In this document: positions 12,582-26,402 of the stretch, in pieces
Layout: every line of letters begins with the position of its first letter
Position numbering within the stretch: the stretch's first letter is position 1
Assembly: GCF_000336385.2 (NCBI RefSeq)
Contig: NZ_HG424492.1
Coordinates: forward strand, 1-36,322
DNA length: 36,322 bases
DNA from: Lysobacter antibioticus HS124
GTDB lineage: Bacteria > Pseudomonadota > Gammaproteobacteria > Xanthomonadales > Xanthomonadaceae
Direction: 5' to 3'
Translations under genes and position numbers: made by a program
The notes under the pieces: model-generated
Told to the model about the DNA's origin: nothing
What the model saw: only the letters and a program-made list of their open reading frames with translations
The model's database searches: none

Positions 12582-13361
12582 ATGAGAGCCGTCGCCGCCG
12601 CCGCCGTATTGGCCGTTTCCGCATTCGCCTCCGCGCCGCAGGCGCGGGCCGCCGATGCCGAGCCGCGGACCCAGTCCTGCTTCCTGCTCTACGATCTCAG
12701 CGCCGGCAACATCGGCCGTCCGCCGACCCAGGCCTGCCAGCGTCAGGTCAGCCCGGCCGCGACGTTCGACATTCCCCATGCCCTGGCCGCGCTCGATGCC
12801 GGCCTGATGAAGGCGACCGCGAGCGGCAACGATCCGGGCGTGGAAAGCCTGCTGCGCTATTCGGCCGACGGTTATTTCATCGGCATCGCCGGCCGCCTCG
12901 GCCCGACCCGCGAGCGCGAGTACCTCAATCGTTTCGGCTACGGCAACGCCGACGTCGGCCGCGGCGCGGGCGCGTTCTGGAACGACGGCGCGCTGAAGAT
13001 TTCGCCGAACGAGCAACTGGGCTTCCTGCAGCGGCTGTTCCGCAGCGAACTGCCGGTCGACCGCCAGGCCATGGCCGAAGTGCGTTCGGCGCTGCGCCAG
13101 CCTGCCGGCGTGGTGGTCGGCTCGTTCGGCGCGGCGCCGTTCGGGCCGATGCCGTGGCGGCACGATCTGATCGTCTCGGCCAAGAGCGGTTCGGTGGTGA
13201 TGCAGGAGAAGAAAGAAGCGGTGCGCTGGCTGGTCGGTCATATCAAGCGCGGCACCCGCCAGATGGTGTTCGTCAGCTGCGTGACCGGGCCGCGCACCCT
13301 GCCGGAGAACGCCGCCGCTGTGCTGGCCAACCACGAGCTGCGCGAGGCGCGGGTGTTCTGA
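12582..13361 (+). CDS. Class D beta-lactamase homologue lacking catalytic residues
   Basis: A 259-residue periplasmic protein (signal peptide to about residue 24) clearly aligned with OXA-type class D beta-lactamases: CFLLYDLSAG near the N-terminus, SPAATFDIPHALAALDAG where OXA enzymes have the S-T-F-K motif, GRLGPTREREYLNRFGYGN carrying the conserved YGN (120-122), FWNDGALKISPNEQLGFLQRLF, and an AKSGS (200-204) in place of KTG. The nucleophile Ser is Ala60 and the carboxylated Lys is Asp63; the S-x-V motif reads S-A-D (94-96). The segment between the first and second motifs is also shorter than in OXA-10. It is therefore predicted not to hydrolyse beta-lactams and may have a binding or sensory role. 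AAGGAG precedes the ATG at 12582. Divergent from the ABC exporter. Confidence 0.8.
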   Translation: MRAVAAAAVLAVSAFASAPQARAADAEPRTQSCFLLYDLSAGNIGRPPTQACQRQVSPAATFDIPHALAALDAGLMKATASGNDPGVESLLRYSADGYFIGIAGRLGPTREREYLNRFGYGNADVGRGAGAFWNDGALKISPNEQLGFLQRLFRSELPVDRQAMAEVRSALRQPAGVVVGSFGAAPFGPMPWRHDLIVSAKSGSVVMQEKKEAVRWLVGHIKRGTRQMVFVSCVTGPRTLPENAAAVLANHELREARVF

Positions 13362-13440
13362 GCCGTGCCGGTTGCGGGGCGGGCCGGCCGCTCGGCGGGT
13401 CGGCTCCGAAGCCGGCGGATCTAGAGGGTGCGCGCCGACG

Positions 13441-15048
<1,608 letters not shown>

Positions 15049-18263: not shown

Positions 18264-19472
18264 TCAATCCGACCACACCCGCCACATGCCCGAGTTGTAA
18301 TACTCGTAGCCGGCCTTGATCTGCGCCTGGTCGCGCGGATCGTCGCCGTAGCTGCTGTCGCCCAGGTCGTAGGGCTTGCCCCAGCCGTCCTGGGTGGTGT
18401 TGGATTCGATCTGCACGTAGCCGGCGCCACGCAATCCGATCTGCTCGGGGATGTCCATCGCCGCGGCGATCACGCCGAAGTGGAAGTTGCCGTAGTTCTC
18501 GTACTGCGCGCCCTGGGTCTTGAAGTCCCACGGGCCGCCGCCCTGTACCTGCTCCTTGAACCACAGCATGTCGCCCGGGTTCGGGAACTCGTGCTTGTGG
18601 GTGTCGGCGATGTTGGCGTCCATCGACACGCCCGGAGGCGCTTCGGGCACGTTGATCAGCCCAGCCTTGGAGGCCTCTTCCATGCTCAGCACCTTGCCCA
18701 TCGCCTGGGCCACGCCGTCGATGCTGGCGCCGGCGCCGAGCAGGCCGACGTCGTCGTTCTGCATGGTCTTGAGCTGCGGCATCGCCGCTTCGAACACCGC
18801 GGTGCGGGTCGGCAGGTCGGCGCCCTGGGCGGCATTGAGAATGCCGGTCAGGGCGCTGGGGTCGTACTGGTTGGTGCCGGCCGTGCGGCCGCTGAAGTCG
18901 ACGATATGGCGCCGGCCCATGGCCACGCTCATCACGTCCTGCAGTTGTTCCTTGCTCAGCGAACCGACCGCTTCCTGGAACGCGGCCGGGTCGTTGCCGA
19001 GGCTGGCCAGTACCTTGCCGACCGCGACCGTCTCCGCATTGCCCCAGGTGCCCTGGGTGGCGCTGTACTCGTCGCCGATATCGCCCTTGACCGCGTCGAT
19101 GAAGCCGGTCTTGGCGTCGCTGCTGCCGTGGCTGGCGATCGCGTCGGCCAGCGCTTCGCGGCCGCCGTTGTCGCCGTCGAAGGCGCGCACGAAGCGCGCG
19201 GTCTGGGTCGCGTCCATGCCTTCGGCGAGCTTGTTGAACAGATCGCTGCGCTCGCCCTTGCTCAGCGAGCCCATCATGCCGTCGATTTCCTGCGTCCAGT
19301 TCTTGATGTCGTCGTCGCTGAGCTTGCTGATGAACTCGTTGCGTTCTTGCGGCGAGAGTTTGTCGACCTCGGCGCTGATCGCGTCGAGGTCTCCCTTGCT
19401 GACGTCCCAGTCCAGCAAGCCCTGGCTGAGCCGGTCTTTGGCGGTGGATACGGCGGAGTCGACGCTGCTCAT
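18264..19472 (-). CDS. Polymorphic toxin type 44 (Ntox44) domain protein
   Basis: A 402-residue protein. Residues about 296-393 match the type 44 polymorphic toxin domain: LWFKEQVQGGGPWDFK, QYENYGNFHFG, LRGAGYVQ and YGDDPRDQAQIKAGYEYY. I recall the family as predicted nuclease-type toxins, but the activity is not certain. The N-terminal 250 residues are acidic and helical with loosely repeated LSPQER/LSKGER/LSKEQL units. There is no Sec signal, PAAR, LXG or other trafficking domain, so secretion would need a type IV, VI or contact-dependent route not visible here. AGGAG lies seven bases before the ATG. It is monocistronic by its terminator and no obvious immunity gene is attached, unless the neighbouring lipoprotein serves. 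Confidence 0.8.
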   Translation of the reverse strand: MSSVDSAVSTAKDRLSQGLLDWDVSKGDLDAISAEVDKLSPQERNEFISKLSDDDIKNWTQEIDGMMGSLSKGERSDLFNKLAEGMDATQTARFVRAFDGDNGGREALADAIASHGSSDAKTGFIDAVKGDIGDEYSATQGTWGNAETVAVGKVLASLGNDPAAFQEAVGSLSKEQLQDVMSVAMGRRHIVDFSGRTAGTNQYDPSALTGILNAAQGADLPTRTAVFEAAMPQLKTMQNDDVGLLGAGASIDGVAQAMGKVLSMEEASKAGLINVPEAPPGVSMDANIADTHKHEFPNPGDMLWFKEQVQGGGPWDFKTQGAQYENYGNFHFGVIAAAMDIPEQIGLRGAGYVQIESNTTQDGWGKPYDLGDSSYGDDPRDQAQIKAGYEYYNSGMWRVWSD

Positions 19473-20728: not shown

Positions 20729-21919
20729 TCACATGCGCGGCCCGGTGCGCGTGGGCGCGCTGGGATCCGGCGGCTGCGTCGCTTGCTGAGGCGCTTGCTG
20801 AGGGGCTTGTTGGATGCGCGCCTGCTGCTCTTGTCGGTCGACCGTCGCCACCGCCTCGTTGCGCAGTTCGCGGCCCGGCGCCGCGGCGGCGGCTTGCTGG
20901 GTCGCCTGGCGCAGCGCTTCGCGATCGCCGCCCTGCGCGGCGGACAGCATGCGATCCAGACTCTGCGAGATGTCCTGGGCCGGGTTCGGTGCTTTGGGGA
21001 CCGGCGGTTTGGGCGGCAGGTCGCTGCTCCATCCGAACTTCACCATGCCCGGCTTGTCCGCATCGGCGAACGACCTGACGCCGTCCGGCTTCCAGGTTTC
21101 CTTGAGCACCGCGCCGGACTTGGTGTAGTACTCGGACAGCTCCTGGGCGTTGTTCAGCACCGCCCACTTGCCGCGATTCACGAACGCGACCGGGAATTCG
21201 CCCGGCTTGGCGACGGCGCCGACGAATCCGCCGTCCTTTTTCACCACCGACGCTTCGTGATCGATCATGTAGCTGGGAAAATTGACCTGCGGGCCATGGC
21301 GGATCACGTTGTGCTCGGTGTCGCGGAACGGGCGCCTGCCGTCGACCTTGGCCACTTCCTCGTTGATCTTGTCGATGATCTGCTTTTCTTCCTTGGAGCC
21401 GACCAGCGGGGTATGCGGCCGGCCCGCGCCGCGGAAGGTCAGCATGTCGTGCATGTCGTAGTCGCCGGTGAACGGCAGCGCCTTCCAGTCAGGCTGCGCT
21501 TTGAGCGCCGACAGCGACTCGTCCAATCGGTTCATGTCGAGCGGGTAGATCTTGTCCTTGACCTGATCGCCCAGCCCGTGGCCGCTGCTGAGGTAGAGGC
21601 CCTTGAGTTCTCCGCTGGTCTTGTCCCAGTGGCCGACATAGCCCTCGATGCCGGCATCGCGGACTTTCTGCAGCATGTCCGCCGAGTTCTCCGGATAAGC
21701 CTTGGCGATCGAAGACGCCTTGATGGTCTTCTCGAGGATGTCGTGTCCTTTCGCCGCCGCCCCTTGCTCCAGCGCGGCCAGGGTCGCCGCGCCCGCCGCC
21801 CTGAAGCTGACGGCGAAATTTCCCTTGCGCGAGGCTTCTTCGATCGCGGCGCGGTGTTCCGGCGTCACGAATTCCCGCTCGACCTGTTCGATCACATTGT
21901 TCTTGTCGTTCTTTCCCAT
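20729..21919 (-). CDS. Edema factor/ExoY-family nucleotidyl cyclase toxin homologue (copy 2)
   Basis: A 396-residue paralogue of the protein at 5769-6956, by eye about three quarters identical over the catalytic region. The key residues are kept: FRAAG (R40), QGAAAKGHDILEK (K57, K64), GDYDM (D153, D155) and IRHGPQVN (H208), with the 17- and 7-residue spacings of edema factor. The tail differs from copy 1: LDRMLSAAQGGDREALRQA, ELRNEAVATVDRQEQQ, then a Gln/Pro-rich end (QQAPQQAPQQATQPP). Gln-rich ends are usual for xanthomonad type IV effectors, but the full XVIPCD signature is not seen. AGGAAG precedes the ATG at 21919. Unlike copy 1 there is no membrane partner gene; a methyltransferase gene lies downstream. 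Confidence 0.8.
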   Translation of the reverse strand: MGKNDKNNVIEQVEREFVTPEHRAAIEEASRKGNFAVSFRAAGAATLAALEQGAAAKGHDILEKTIKASSIAKAYPENSADMLQKVRDAGIEGYVGHWDKTSGELKGLYLSSGHGLGDQVKDKIYPLDMNRLDESLSALKAQPDWKALPFTGDYDMHDMLTFRGAGRPHTPLVGSKEEKQIIDKINEEVAKVDGRRPFRDTEHNVIRHGPQVNFPSYMIDHEASVVKKDGGFVGAVAKPGEFPVAFVNRGKWAVLNNAQELSEYYTKSGAVLKETWKPDGVRSFADADKPGMVKFGWSSDLPPKPPVPKAPNPAQDISQSLDRMLSAAQGGDREALRQATQQAAAAAPGRELRNEAVATVDRQEQQARIQQAPQQAPQQATQPPDPSAPTRTGPRM

Positions 21920-22620
21920 CGTAGCTTCCTGTTTCGATTCGGTTTTGAGCGTGGCGGCCGGCGGAAAGTTCAACCATCGCCGCTGCGGCGCTGCGGCGCT
22001 GCGTGCGGAGCGTTCGGTGCCGGTTATGGTCGTCGCGACGCAGCGCGAACGAGCGCCATGCGGCAGCAATATCGGAGCGCGCGACCGCGCGCCGGCCGTG
22101 CGTGGCAGGACGATGCGTATCGCACCGCGGTTCGTACTGACCCCAGAATAATCTTCGCGATCGCCGTAGCGGCCGGACTTTCGGTCGCGTGCCGCATTTC
22201 GGCTGCGGCGCGTGCTTCGATCGCGAGGCGCGTCACAGATCGATTCGACGTCCTCTTCGCCAGGCGATGAGGGGTTGGATCGAAGCATGAGTATCGAGGC
22301 GCAGCGAGCGACAAGGGGCGGCGAGAGACCGCATGCGTCCGACTCGCATCGCGGCGCGAACGATGACCTGTTCCTGCTTGGTGGGTGCCGACGGCGAGGC
22401 GTCGCGACAGTCCTTGGGATCGACAGGCGCGGCTCGGCGTCGCTCAGCGGGGCGGGATGCGCGCGCTGCGTCCGGCTCGATTCCCGGCGTGCCCGTCGTC
22501 GCGACAATCCCTGCGCGCGCCGCAAGTTTGGGTCCAGGGAGCGGCAGCGACGGGAAGTAGCCATGCCGGGCGCAACATTGCGGCCCGCGCGGAGGAATCG
22601 CAGCCATTGTCCGCCCAAAG
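21920..22620. other. Gene-free stretch upstream of cyclase copy 2
   Basis: About 700 bases without a supportable gene; overlapping frames on both strands lack ribosome binding sites and recognisable products. It should contain the promoter of cyclase copy 2. The right edge marks a drop in GC content where the dusA-proximal island begins. Confidence 0.4.
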
Positions 22621-22647
22621 GTAACTAATTACTTCCTGGACCGCATT

Positions 22648-22729
22648 GGTTACCGAAGACCATGACGGCTAAGCCCTGACAGACCTGGGAAACGTGGCGG
22701 GTTTTCTTATAGGTTACCGAAGTTACCGA
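22648..22729. repeat. GTTACCGA repeats at the left island edge
   Basis: GGTTACCGAAG occurs at 22648-22658 and again from 22712, where GTTACCGA is repeated in tandem (22713-22720 and 22722-22729). Such short iterated sites are typical of recombinase or excisionase arms at island ends, but this is inference. Confidence 0.35.
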
Positions 22730-22930
22730 TCTCCGAAGCATGCTCAGATGCAGCGGCGGGTGGCCTGTGGTAAGCGTAGTTAAGTTGACGCGTGCTGCAA
22801 AAATGCTGTGATCGGATCGCCGAGCGACAGCGTTGCGGGGTAGCGGGGCGGGGAGTACGGTGGCTGGCCTTAGACCTAGAGCGGTCTATCCCGTCCGAAA
22901 GTATTTTTAAGCCCGGAGTCTGTTGAGTCT

Positions 22931-23419
22931 ATGGAAATCAGGGACGTCATGTCGGTCATAGCGCTGATCGTTTCAATCGCTAGCTCGGCTTATGCATACT
23001 CAATAGGCCGTTTCAATCGGAATGTGAAGGCCTCTGAGCTTAAGGCGGCCTTGAACGAGCGTTTCTTCAAGATTGGCGCGCGTGTATCACGAGCATCAGA
23101 AAAGGCGATAAAGTCAGCCGAGCAATGCATTCGTAGGCGTGTGGAAGGCAACTTGACCCAAGCTGTTGGTCAAGCGCTGGCTGAATTTGAGCCGCTCTTT
23201 GAGCGTACATCGAAGTTAGTTGCATCAATTCGGCAACGTGTCGATAATTTGCACGCTAGGGTAATGAAATCGTCACCTGCCGAGATTCTCGAAATTCATG
23301 CCGATTTTCTTTTGGAGGCGAACCGCATAGAAGAGCTGCTAGAGGATCTCGAAGATAACGTGGCAAAATTCGTTACGATCTGGGGAGGTGAGCCCAAGTC
23401 TGCTCCTGTATCTTCGTAA
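22931..23419 (+). CDS. Membrane-anchored coiled-coil protein of unknown function
   Basis: A 162-residue protein with one N-terminal transmembrane segment (VMSVIALIVSIASSAYAYSIG, about 6-26) followed by a long, mainly helical and charged cytoplasmic part with heptad-like spacing, ending in EIHADFLLEANRIEELLEDLEDNVAKF. No family recognised. GGAG lies 12 bases before the ATG at 22931; a second in-frame ATG at 22949 follows AGGGA closely and may be the true start. Codon use is AT-richer than the flanking genes. It converges on the DUF262-HEPN operon with 45 bases between ends, so it may be part of the same cargo or independent. Confidence 0.7.
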   Translation: MEIRDVMSVIALIVSIASSAYAYSIGRFNRNVKASELKAALNERFFKIGARVSRASEKAIKSAEQCIRRRVEGNLTQAVGQALAEFEPLFERTSKLVASIRQRVDNLHARVMKSSPAEILEIHADFLLEANRIEELLEDLEDNVAKFVTIWGGEPKSAPVSS

Positions 23420-23464
23420 CCTTTTGGGAGTTGGAGCGGGCCGGTGCAATAGAAGTGACGCGTC

Positions 23465-24061
23465 TTAGCTGAAATAGCCTTCTAGCTGTTTGAGGATGTC
23501 GTCAACGGCCTTCGCCTCTGCGCTAGGGGCTAATATCGTGGTGACGCGTGCGGCGCTCTGGTGTGCGACATCGCCTCGGCTGGACCCATAGCTCGTCAGA
23601 CTTGCGACCAAAGCGTTGTCGATCTCATCCGGCATTTTTCCAGCAAATACGGCCAGCCGAGCAAAAGAGTATTCCTTGATGCCGTTGTTCTCGCGCACCG
23701 AGTCTCTCGCGTGCTTAATTGTACGCGCCACATCACTCTCCCAATGTGGAGACTCAAGTCGGGGCATTTGCTTAAGGGTGTCGATGAGGGTGAGCGCCAC
23801 AACTAATATGTCGATACATTCCCGTATCGCTTTCCGACCGCCGCTGAAATCAGACTCGATGCGGCTAAGCCCCTGTGTTGCCTTGCGCTCAAGGTAGTCT
23901 TCAATCTCTGCGTGTGCGAGCAATCGGAATGCTGCGAGTGAATCGGTGTCTGGTATGTAGCTCAACGGCTCTCTGTTCTCCTCTTCTAGCTGAGCCTGCA
24001 CAAACTTTGCTTTGAGAGCGTCAATCCTTTTTTGCAAATACTCAAAGTGTACGCACGCCAT
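23465..24061 (-). CDS. HEPN-domain protein partner of DUF262
   Basis: A 198-residue, mostly helical protein. The C-terminal SYGSSRGDVAHQSA carries the HEPN Rx4H motif (R162, H167), the catalytic signature of HEPN ribonucleases, and SLAAFRLLAHAEIEDYLE (41-58) is the conserved first helix of the MAE_28990/RiboL-PSP-like HEPN groups, which are often encoded beside DUF262 genes. It starts five bases after the DUF262 stop with no Shine-Dalgarno, implying translational coupling. Predicted role: RNA-cleaving effector of a two-gene defence or toxin-antitoxin-like system. Family placement is from memory of motifs; RNase activity is inferred. Confidence 0.75.
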   Translation of the reverse strand: MACVHFEYLQKRIDALKAKFVQAQLEEENREPLSYIPDTDSLAAFRLLAHAEIEDYLERKATQGLSRIESDFSGGRKAIRECIDILVVALTLIDTLKQMPRLESPHWESDVARTIKHARDSVRENNGIKEYSFARLAVFAGKMPDEIDNALVASLTSYGSSRGDVAHQSAARVTTILAPSAEAKAVDDILKQLEGYFS

Positions 24062-24066
24062 ATGAT

Positions 24067-25224
24067 TTAGTTGATACGAAAAGTGGTGGGGTCGAACGCC
24101 ATGTCCAACTGTTCGGCAAGTGCTTGCCCCCAGATCGACAGCCGATTGTTCGTTGCCTCCTGCGTTTTGGTGGACTTCTCAATAGCATTCTTGAATGCGT
24201 TATCCCCACAGACCCGTTGAAAAGCTTCTATGACTTTCCCGTTATTAGCAGCTGCATTTTTCGCCACGGCCTCATCGGCGAAGTAGCGCACCAGGCAGTC
24301 GAAGATTGCACGGTTTATTACTCGTTCGTATCGGGAGCCCAGCCACTTGCGAAAAACATATTCGCCAAAGATATTGCTAGCAGTGGCTAGTGCAAGATCG
24401 AGTCTGGCAAAGCGCTCGCCGACTTCGATTTGGCTTTGGTTCCAATCTTGTTCGTAATGTCGCGTCGTGTCGTCAAGAAATTTTTTGAAATCTCCACGAT
24501 AGGTTTCTAAGCTGCGGTCAAAGGCAATGAAACGCAGAACAAGCTCGGAATCTCTCATTCGCTTGTCGAGCTGGGCGCCGAAGACGCTATGGAATGACTG
24601 GCTCTTCTCCAAGTAGCCTTCTATCGCATCAATCAAATTTCCGCCGATGAGGGCTTTTCGAAGTTCTTGTGGTGACAGCGGCAAAGAGCCTGCATTCAGC
24701 CGATAGAATGCCGCATAAAGGAAGTTTTCGTCTTTCCAGTTTCGAATCAACGTAGAGCGCAGCGTGCTATTCTCAAGTCGCTCTTTGTCGGCGTTGTCCA
24801 GCGCTTCGAAAGTCTTGCCGTTCAAGTCGCTTCGCAAGTCGAGGCCGCGAAGAGGATATTTGTTGTCCAGAAAATCTTGGATGGATATGAGCCTTTGCTT
24901 GCCGTCGATGACTATGAAACGGCCGCGATGTTCTCGGTTCTCCGCTAACACCACGTTCGGTACTGGCATGCCGACGATAATCGATTCGATCAGGCGACTC
25001 TTTCTGACGTGATCCCATGCGGATCGGCGCTGGAAGCTTGGGAGTAGATCAATATTGCCTTTTCGAATTTGTAAGTTGATGGACTCGATTGTCCAATCCG
25101 CATTTGTTACGACCGTATCTTGAAATGATACTTTCCCGAGGTCGTCCTCATCTTCCTGCTGACTATCGGGGATAAGTTGGCTGCGTTCTTCAGGCTCTTG
25201 GTCTTTGTCTTCGGCGTTAACCAT
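24067..25224 (-). CDS. DUF262-domain protein (ParB/GmrS-like NTPase fold)
   Basis: A 385-residue protein with a DUF262 domain: an acidic N-terminus (about 1-30), then LLPSFQRRSAW (FQR at 64-66, W70), SRLIESIIVGMPVP, and VIDGKQRLISIQDF, the family's DGQQR motif with Lys for the first Gln. DUF262 domains in GmrSD, BrxU and SspE couple nucleotide binding to nuclease action. The C-terminal DUF1524 HNH nuclease of those proteins is absent: the last 180 residues are helical with no H-N-H motif. The nuclease function would thus be supplied by the HEPN protein encoded directly downstream. AAAGGA lies before the ATG at 25224. Low GC, island-type codon use. Confidence 0.85.
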   Translation of the reverse strand: MVNAEDKDQEPEERSQLIPDSQQEDEDDLGKVSFQDTVVTNADWTIESINLQIRKGNIDLLPSFQRRSAWDHVRKSRLIESIIVGMPVPNVVLAENREHRGRFIVIDGKQRLISIQDFLDNKYPLRGLDLRSDLNGKTFEALDNADKERLENSTLRSTLIRNWKDENFLYAAFYRLNAGSLPLSPQELRKALIGGNLIDAIEGYLEKSQSFHSVFGAQLDKRMRDSELVLRFIAFDRSLETYRGDFKKFLDDTTRHYEQDWNQSQIEVGERFARLDLALATASNIFGEYVFRKWLGSRYERVINRAIFDCLVRYFADEAVAKNAAANNGKVIEAFQRVCGDNAFKNAIEKSTKTQEATNNRLSIWGQALAEQLDMAFDPTTFRIN

Positions 25225-25316
25225 TAGTCGTCCTTTTCTTAAAGTTGAGCGAATATCCTGGTTGGCATTCCGTCGCGCTGCTACGCATCTTTCTTGAGGT
25301 GTTCAGTCAGCTCATA

Positions 25317-25333
25317 GGTACACTAATGGTACA
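25317..25333. repeat. GGTACA direct repeats at the right island edge
   Basis: GGTACA at 25317-25322 and 25328-25333, 11 bases apart (one helical turn), 60 bases before dusA. Similar in layout to the GTTACCGA repeats at the other edge; a possible recombinase arm site. Confidence 0.35.

Positions 25334-25391: not shown

Positions 25392-26402
<1,011 letters not shown>

Follow-up and report, generated by a model that had tools for sequence, protein, structure and literature searches.

The stretch of Lysobacter antibioticus HS124 DNA analysed here (contig NZ_HG424492.1, positions 1 to 36,322 of the forward strand; 36,322 nucleotides, hereafter the window) carries a two-gene unit on its minus strand, which probably represents an anti-phage module made of a DUF262 protein and a HEPN protein. 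Gene A (24067..25224) encodes a DUF262 (GmrSD_N, ParB-like) protein of 385 residues with an ATG start and the motif DGKQR at residues 107-111, predicted to be a sensor or regulator dependent on nucleoside triphosphates (NTP). Its stop codon is separated by five bases (24062..24066, minus strand) from the ATG of gene B (23465..24061), an arrangement suggesting co-transcription and translational coupling. The product of gene B is probably a RiboL-PSP type HEPN protein; it has 198 residues with the Rx4H motif R162-x4-H167 (RGDVAH) and is a predicted ribonuclease (RNase) effector. A reading of the letters alone (the sequence-only reading) had described this locus as a DUF262 protein lacking DUF1524, five bases before an Rx4H HEPN gene; both frames, the Pfam domain and the motifs were confirmed. 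The two frames are open, and all residues invariant among relatives are present in them.

The Pfam search placed GmrSD_N/DUF262 (PF03235) at residues 55-193 of protein A (E 6.4e-24) and returned no second family at E <=1, hence no DUF1524 match; no DHxxP-like motif was found by pattern. DGKQR is invariant across 58 aligned A proteins. Among the PADLOC models, protein A matches NsnA (E 2.4e-76) and PD-T4-2_A (E 2.5e-36 over residues 21-362). The PD-T4-2_A model also matches 58/58 aligned A proteins at E <=0.001, as well as five other DUF262 proteins, and for all five of these NsnA is the best PADLOC match.

For protein B, Pfam returned nothing at E <=1 except MutS_III (0.17, far below the cut-off), and both PF18735 and DUF1524 were without a match. 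The RiboL-PSP-HEPN profile (PF18735) nevertheless matches 68 of the 71 aligned B proteins at E <=0.1, though not B of the window at E <=1. R162 and H167 are invariant across this alignment, together with E52, E58, N125, G127 and G141, and the column of another Rx4H of the window protein, at R101, is not conserved. The AlphaFold2 model of B is confident, helical and HEPN-like, and the protein has an Rx4-6H motif in addition to this fold. The PADLOC model PD-T4-2_B matches B weakly (E 0.0025, residues 149-194 only) and reaches just 18/71 B proteins at E <=0.1. Searches of PDB sequences with A, B and both profiles found no relative, three of the four listing chance-level hits only. Searches by tblastn gave nothing for window B in plasmids and phages, for the B of one relative in phages or for that of another in plasmids, and the plasmid result contrasts with a profile match of this B family on a Rhodococcus plasmid (described below). 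Since B diverges too fast for tblastn, B genes without an A gene may escape this type of search.

Relatives of the pair were taken from two sources. Alignment A1 was run against one genome of each species, and the 80 best of 161 relatives, near the window's branch by choice, were used; viral contigs gave one locus and later eight, one of these on the same contig. One locus (L120) duplicated another (L034) and was dropped. In 84 of 87 loci (77/80 genome and 7/7 viral), A is immediately followed by a homologue of B; the pairing is therefore recurrent, a point that the sequence-only reading had proposed to check, and more frequent than chance would give. The gap between the genes is -11 to 20 bases in 82 of the 84 paired loci, with the B start codon chosen for its closeness to the A terminus, a rule that biases the result towards short gaps. 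The three unpaired loci are one that ends near a contig end (L061), one with a 149-residue open reading frame (ORF) without Rx4H behind A (L104) and one with a broken A (L108). Record titles point to hosts including Cyanobacteria, Proteobacteria, Streptomyces and other actinomycetes, Bacteroidetes and Acidobacteria. Three relatives of A (L006, L012, L013) have a partner of 361-377 residues without Rx4H that starts inside the end of A, possibly another type of DUF262 effector.

Pairwise distances of A and B, compared over 71 pairs, are correlated (r 0.86), and 0 of 5000 permutations gave a value as high. As far as sequences tell, the genes travel together; this is not proof of contact, since shared descent alone can yield such a correlation. 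In the family of the window, 395 sampled genomes contained A matches in 41 and B matches in three (G000, G393, G181), which are those holding the best A matches. Profile A3 found the window and one marginal match (E 9.9e-4) in 274 genomes of the class. The placement of such pairs in defence islands, also put forward by the sequence-only reading, was not borne out: the neighbour genes of relatives gave no sign of these islands among the 25 of 110 PADLOC and 25 of 109 Pfam families listed, in a scan that covered 132 of the 150 genes selected (those left out were 10 from near-duplicate loci, 3 that were too large and 5 others), took the nearest gene on each side by longest frame and had no control set.

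A FastTree phylogeny of 103 A proteins unites the window protein with 73 others in a single clade (support 0.938). DGKQR is found in 74/74 A proteins inside the clade versus 2/29 outside, and an RG motif occurs in the B partners of 72 of the 74 members. The other two were given the RG label by hand: L053, whose B is cut to 122 residues, lacks the motif and was treated as a paired locus, and L070, which has RAEAAH. How large and clean this clade looks is partly a result of the scan patterns, as they came from alignment A1. Outside it are the A proteins of the plasmid pairs L123 and L125 and of locus L179, the only PD-T4-2 sequence in the tree and too few for placing the whole PD-T4-2 family. 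Outside the clade, the family search gave 26 relatives of A with 300 residues or more: in 19 of them the ORF downstream contains R[NGHDC]xxxH past residue 100, which is RN in 16, and seven are without such an ORF. The branch B profile finds B of L181, L124 and L126 and, at E <=1, does not find B of L123, L125 and L179; profile A3 gave no support for the HEPN partners of L123 and L125. Judged by sequence, the window pair falls into a branch of its own, whose signatures are DGKQR in A and, for almost every member, RGxxxH in B. The glycine after the arginine is a real deviation, because in HEPN RNases a polar residue at this place contributes to catalysis, according to Anantharaman et al. 2013 (PMC3710099).

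Members of the branch are carried by prophages. The pair lies between homologues of gpA and gpQ in six loci (L041, L112, L115-L118), five of which are about 60% identical, and in one more (L119) only gpQ is visible beside it; PHROGs names the flanks in L116 and L118 replication nickase and portal. In P2-like prophages, the gpA-gpQ interval is described as a hotspot of anti-phage systems, where P2 itself has old and tin (Rousset et al.). In E. coli S42 a replication endonuclease gene is followed by two small genes, then by the pair and by the portal gene. By megablast, the pair is present in at least 11 of 5426 E. coli genomes, with a DNA identity of about 81%; among the ten records listed, nine are isolates from bovine faeces that belong to a single strain series, and all ten annotate the partner as 'hypothetical protein'. 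The pair is also found in a different prophage (L034), alongside integrase, helicase and terminase genes. In a Klebsiella P2-type phage (L126, 5908-7811), a branch pair is located beside tail-fibre genes, outside the gpA-gpQ interval, and its HEPN partner is annotated as hypothetical. Related pairs occur on plasmids too, those of E. coli and Acinetobacter having partners annotated as HEPN. On a conjugative Rhodococcus plasmid, a frame of 229 residues with RGDTAH lies behind A (L124, 5120-5806) and matches the B profile at E 3.6e-25, and no gene is listed there. The partner is called a hypothetical protein in the ten E. coli prophage records and is unlisted on the Rhodococcus plasmid; this amounts to an annotation gap, and such systems may be overlooked in counts that use the B model.

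The closest known counterpart is PD-T4-2, which protects when cloned; deleting it from its native host increases plaquing by T4 (Vassallo et al. 2022, PMC9519451). In the table of Mariano and Blower it is listed under DUF262 and under HEPN PF18735. The 274 sampled class genomes contain one PD-T4-2_B match (E 1.6e-61), which led to locus L179, where a DUF262 protein is followed after a 2-base gap by a 167-residue protein with RNRVAH. As in the window, a DUF262 gene is thus followed at once by a HEPN gene; the A proteins of the window and L179 share 29% identity over 251 alignment columns, and within the B alignment the C-terminal portion with Rx4H can be aligned to PD-T4-2 B (hhalign E 3.3e-4, probability 38%). 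L179 differs in having DGLQR in A and RNRVAH in B, against DGKQR and RGDVAH in the window, as well as in its position outside the clade and beyond the reach of the branch B profile. An operon of RiboL-PSP-HEPN with ParB, listed by Anantharaman et al. 2013 (PMC3710099), likewise joins a HEPN family to a ParB-fold partner, although that listing is computational and B of the window stays below detection by the Pfam model.

GmrSD, BrxU and SspE also have a DUF262 domain with DGxQR, which works there with a nuclease, and GmrSD was originally found as two proteins, according to Mariano and Blower. The window pair shares the domain and the motif with them but has a HEPN partner in place of a DUF1524 match, and GmrSD was rejected as the full answer on the Pfam result for A and B (E <=1). 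The sequence-only reading presented the design as the reverse of these one-piece enzymes, which was overstated, given that PD-T4-2 has the same make-up and was tested, that HEPN with ParB was listed in 2013 and that GmrSD itself was first found in two pieces. The DUF262-HEPN architecture is already known, and the window pair represents a separate, widespread branch of it. A literature search for DUF262 together with RiboL-PSP found no report. Menshen has a DUF262 gene as well, which goes with a predicted OLD nuclease (Mariano and Blower), whereas the partner in the window is HEPN. The Nsn names are those of Menshen, and window A matches NsnA; Menshen was rejected as the full answer, as each of the five other DUF262 proteins compared also has NsnA as its top match and an OLD nuclease partner is missing.

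The pair is thus interpreted, with good but not full confidence, as a self-contained anti-phage module of two genes that is mobile, belongs with PD-T4-2 to the DUF262-HEPN kind, comes from the separate DGKQR/RGxxxH branch and works as an RNase gated by a nucleoside triphosphatase (NTPase). Protein A, as a ParB-like NTPase, would hold or license B until an infection cue is sensed, and its NTP state would then release B; B, as a metal-independent HEPN RNase, would cleave RNA, and this would stop phage production or cell growth. The part given to DUF262 follows by analogy with GmrSD, BrxU and SspE, and that of HEPN by analogy with known HEPN RNases. The model presumes that A uses NTP, that the two proteins touch and that RNA is the substrate, and the trigger and an abortive outcome are likewise presumed. 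A defence role for the copy in the window, as suggested by the sequence-only reading, is probable from its likeness to PD-T4-2 and from the carriage of its relatives in a prophage defence hotspot. More tentatively, the RGxxxH/DGKQR branch could be a separate defence system, in which a DUF262 switch with lysine in its nucleotide motif gates a HEPN effector with glycine after the arginine, the invariant E52, E58 and N125 take over part of the active site, and the RNA target or trigger differs from that of PD-T4-2. In the accessible parts of the literature, no description was found of the way in which DUF262 switches act on HEPN RNases, and this second branch over several phyla, with its paired signatures DGKQR and RGxxxH, offers natural variants for testing signal versus catalysis residues.

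Several observations would fit a toxin-antitoxin module that mainly stabilises mobile DNA, with B as an RNase toxin, A as its antitoxin and defence secondary or absent. The best matches of the B model among solved structures are HEPN toxins of toxin-antitoxin pairs, the HEPN gene is second in a two-gene order, and related pairs reside on plasmids. The repeated location in the gpA-gpQ hotspot of P2-like prophages and the defence demonstrated for PD-T4-2 speak for an anti-phage function instead, and we consider a mainly stabilising module possible but rather unlikely; a toxin-antitoxin pair can defend too, so that the two readings overlap. The GmrSD_N domain of A, together with the work of DUF262 with a nuclease in GmrSD, BrxU and SspE, might also indicate type IV restriction of the GmrSD kind, where A would read modified DNA and B would be a DNA nuclease replacing DUF1524. 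This seems improbable, as B looks like a HEPN protein with the Rx4H known from RNases and neither protein matches DUF1524.

Equally improbable is that the pair has decayed or lost its activity and is a remnant of an element that had integrated at the neighbouring gene dusA. A promoter scan gave no promoter-like site (1.7 expected by chance), and no integrase and no second copy of the dusA 5' end were found at the island; the open frames of A and B and their full set of invariant residues argue against decay.

The pair is located in an AT-rich island (22622..25320) between the chromosomal left flank and dusA, with a GC content of 0.51 versus 0.69 in the left and 0.72 in the right flank. The dusA gene (25392..26402, plus strand; Dus E 1.4e-76) adjoins the island with its 5' end and is part of the flank, outside the system. 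The dusA 5' end is a known target of genomic islands, whose only universal feature is a dusA-associated integrase (Farrugia et al.). No integrase was found in the window island: by Pfam, A, B and a 162-residue ORF are not integrases, and tblastn of the window with two tyrosine recombinases, neither of them a dusA integrase, detected none. A recognisable dusA 5' copy, as expected of an attachment-site repeat, was not found left of the island, and blastn of the island against the stretches upstream of dusA in 17 genomes of the same genus gave no match. Of the claim that this is an AT-rich island at an integration hotspot, the low GC and the known target therefore stand, supported by a large insertion in a genome of the same species (G205), while the integrase and the far-side repeat are missing. 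In G205 the left flank runs into a 5' end of dusA, and the remaining part of the gene, carrying a different 5' end, follows about 66 kb further (G205:C2, ~936637 to 1002526; L158, L159), which fits an insertion at the published target; G205 lacks the window island, and searches of it for A and B gave no match. Close to the right-hand boundary of this interval there is a weak match to a tyrosine recombinase (E 3e-5).

The 162-residue ORF (22931..23419, plus strand) is convergent to the pair and has an N-terminal hydrophobic stretch by eye and no family above the cut-off; it is not shown to be part of the system, and a link to the pair was rejected, as there were weak matches only. In another genome of the genus (G252), the slot beside dusA holds about 4 kb of other DNA, including an ORF of 385 residues (L157, reverse complement 12818-13975) that by eye looks like proteins of Schlafen/AlbA type, possibly another defence gene. 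Left of the island, long minus-strand ORFs (20729-22618 and 18264-19472 of the window) lie in a stretch shared with G205 and G252; by eye they resemble secreted XVIPCD-type effectors of Xanthomonadales.
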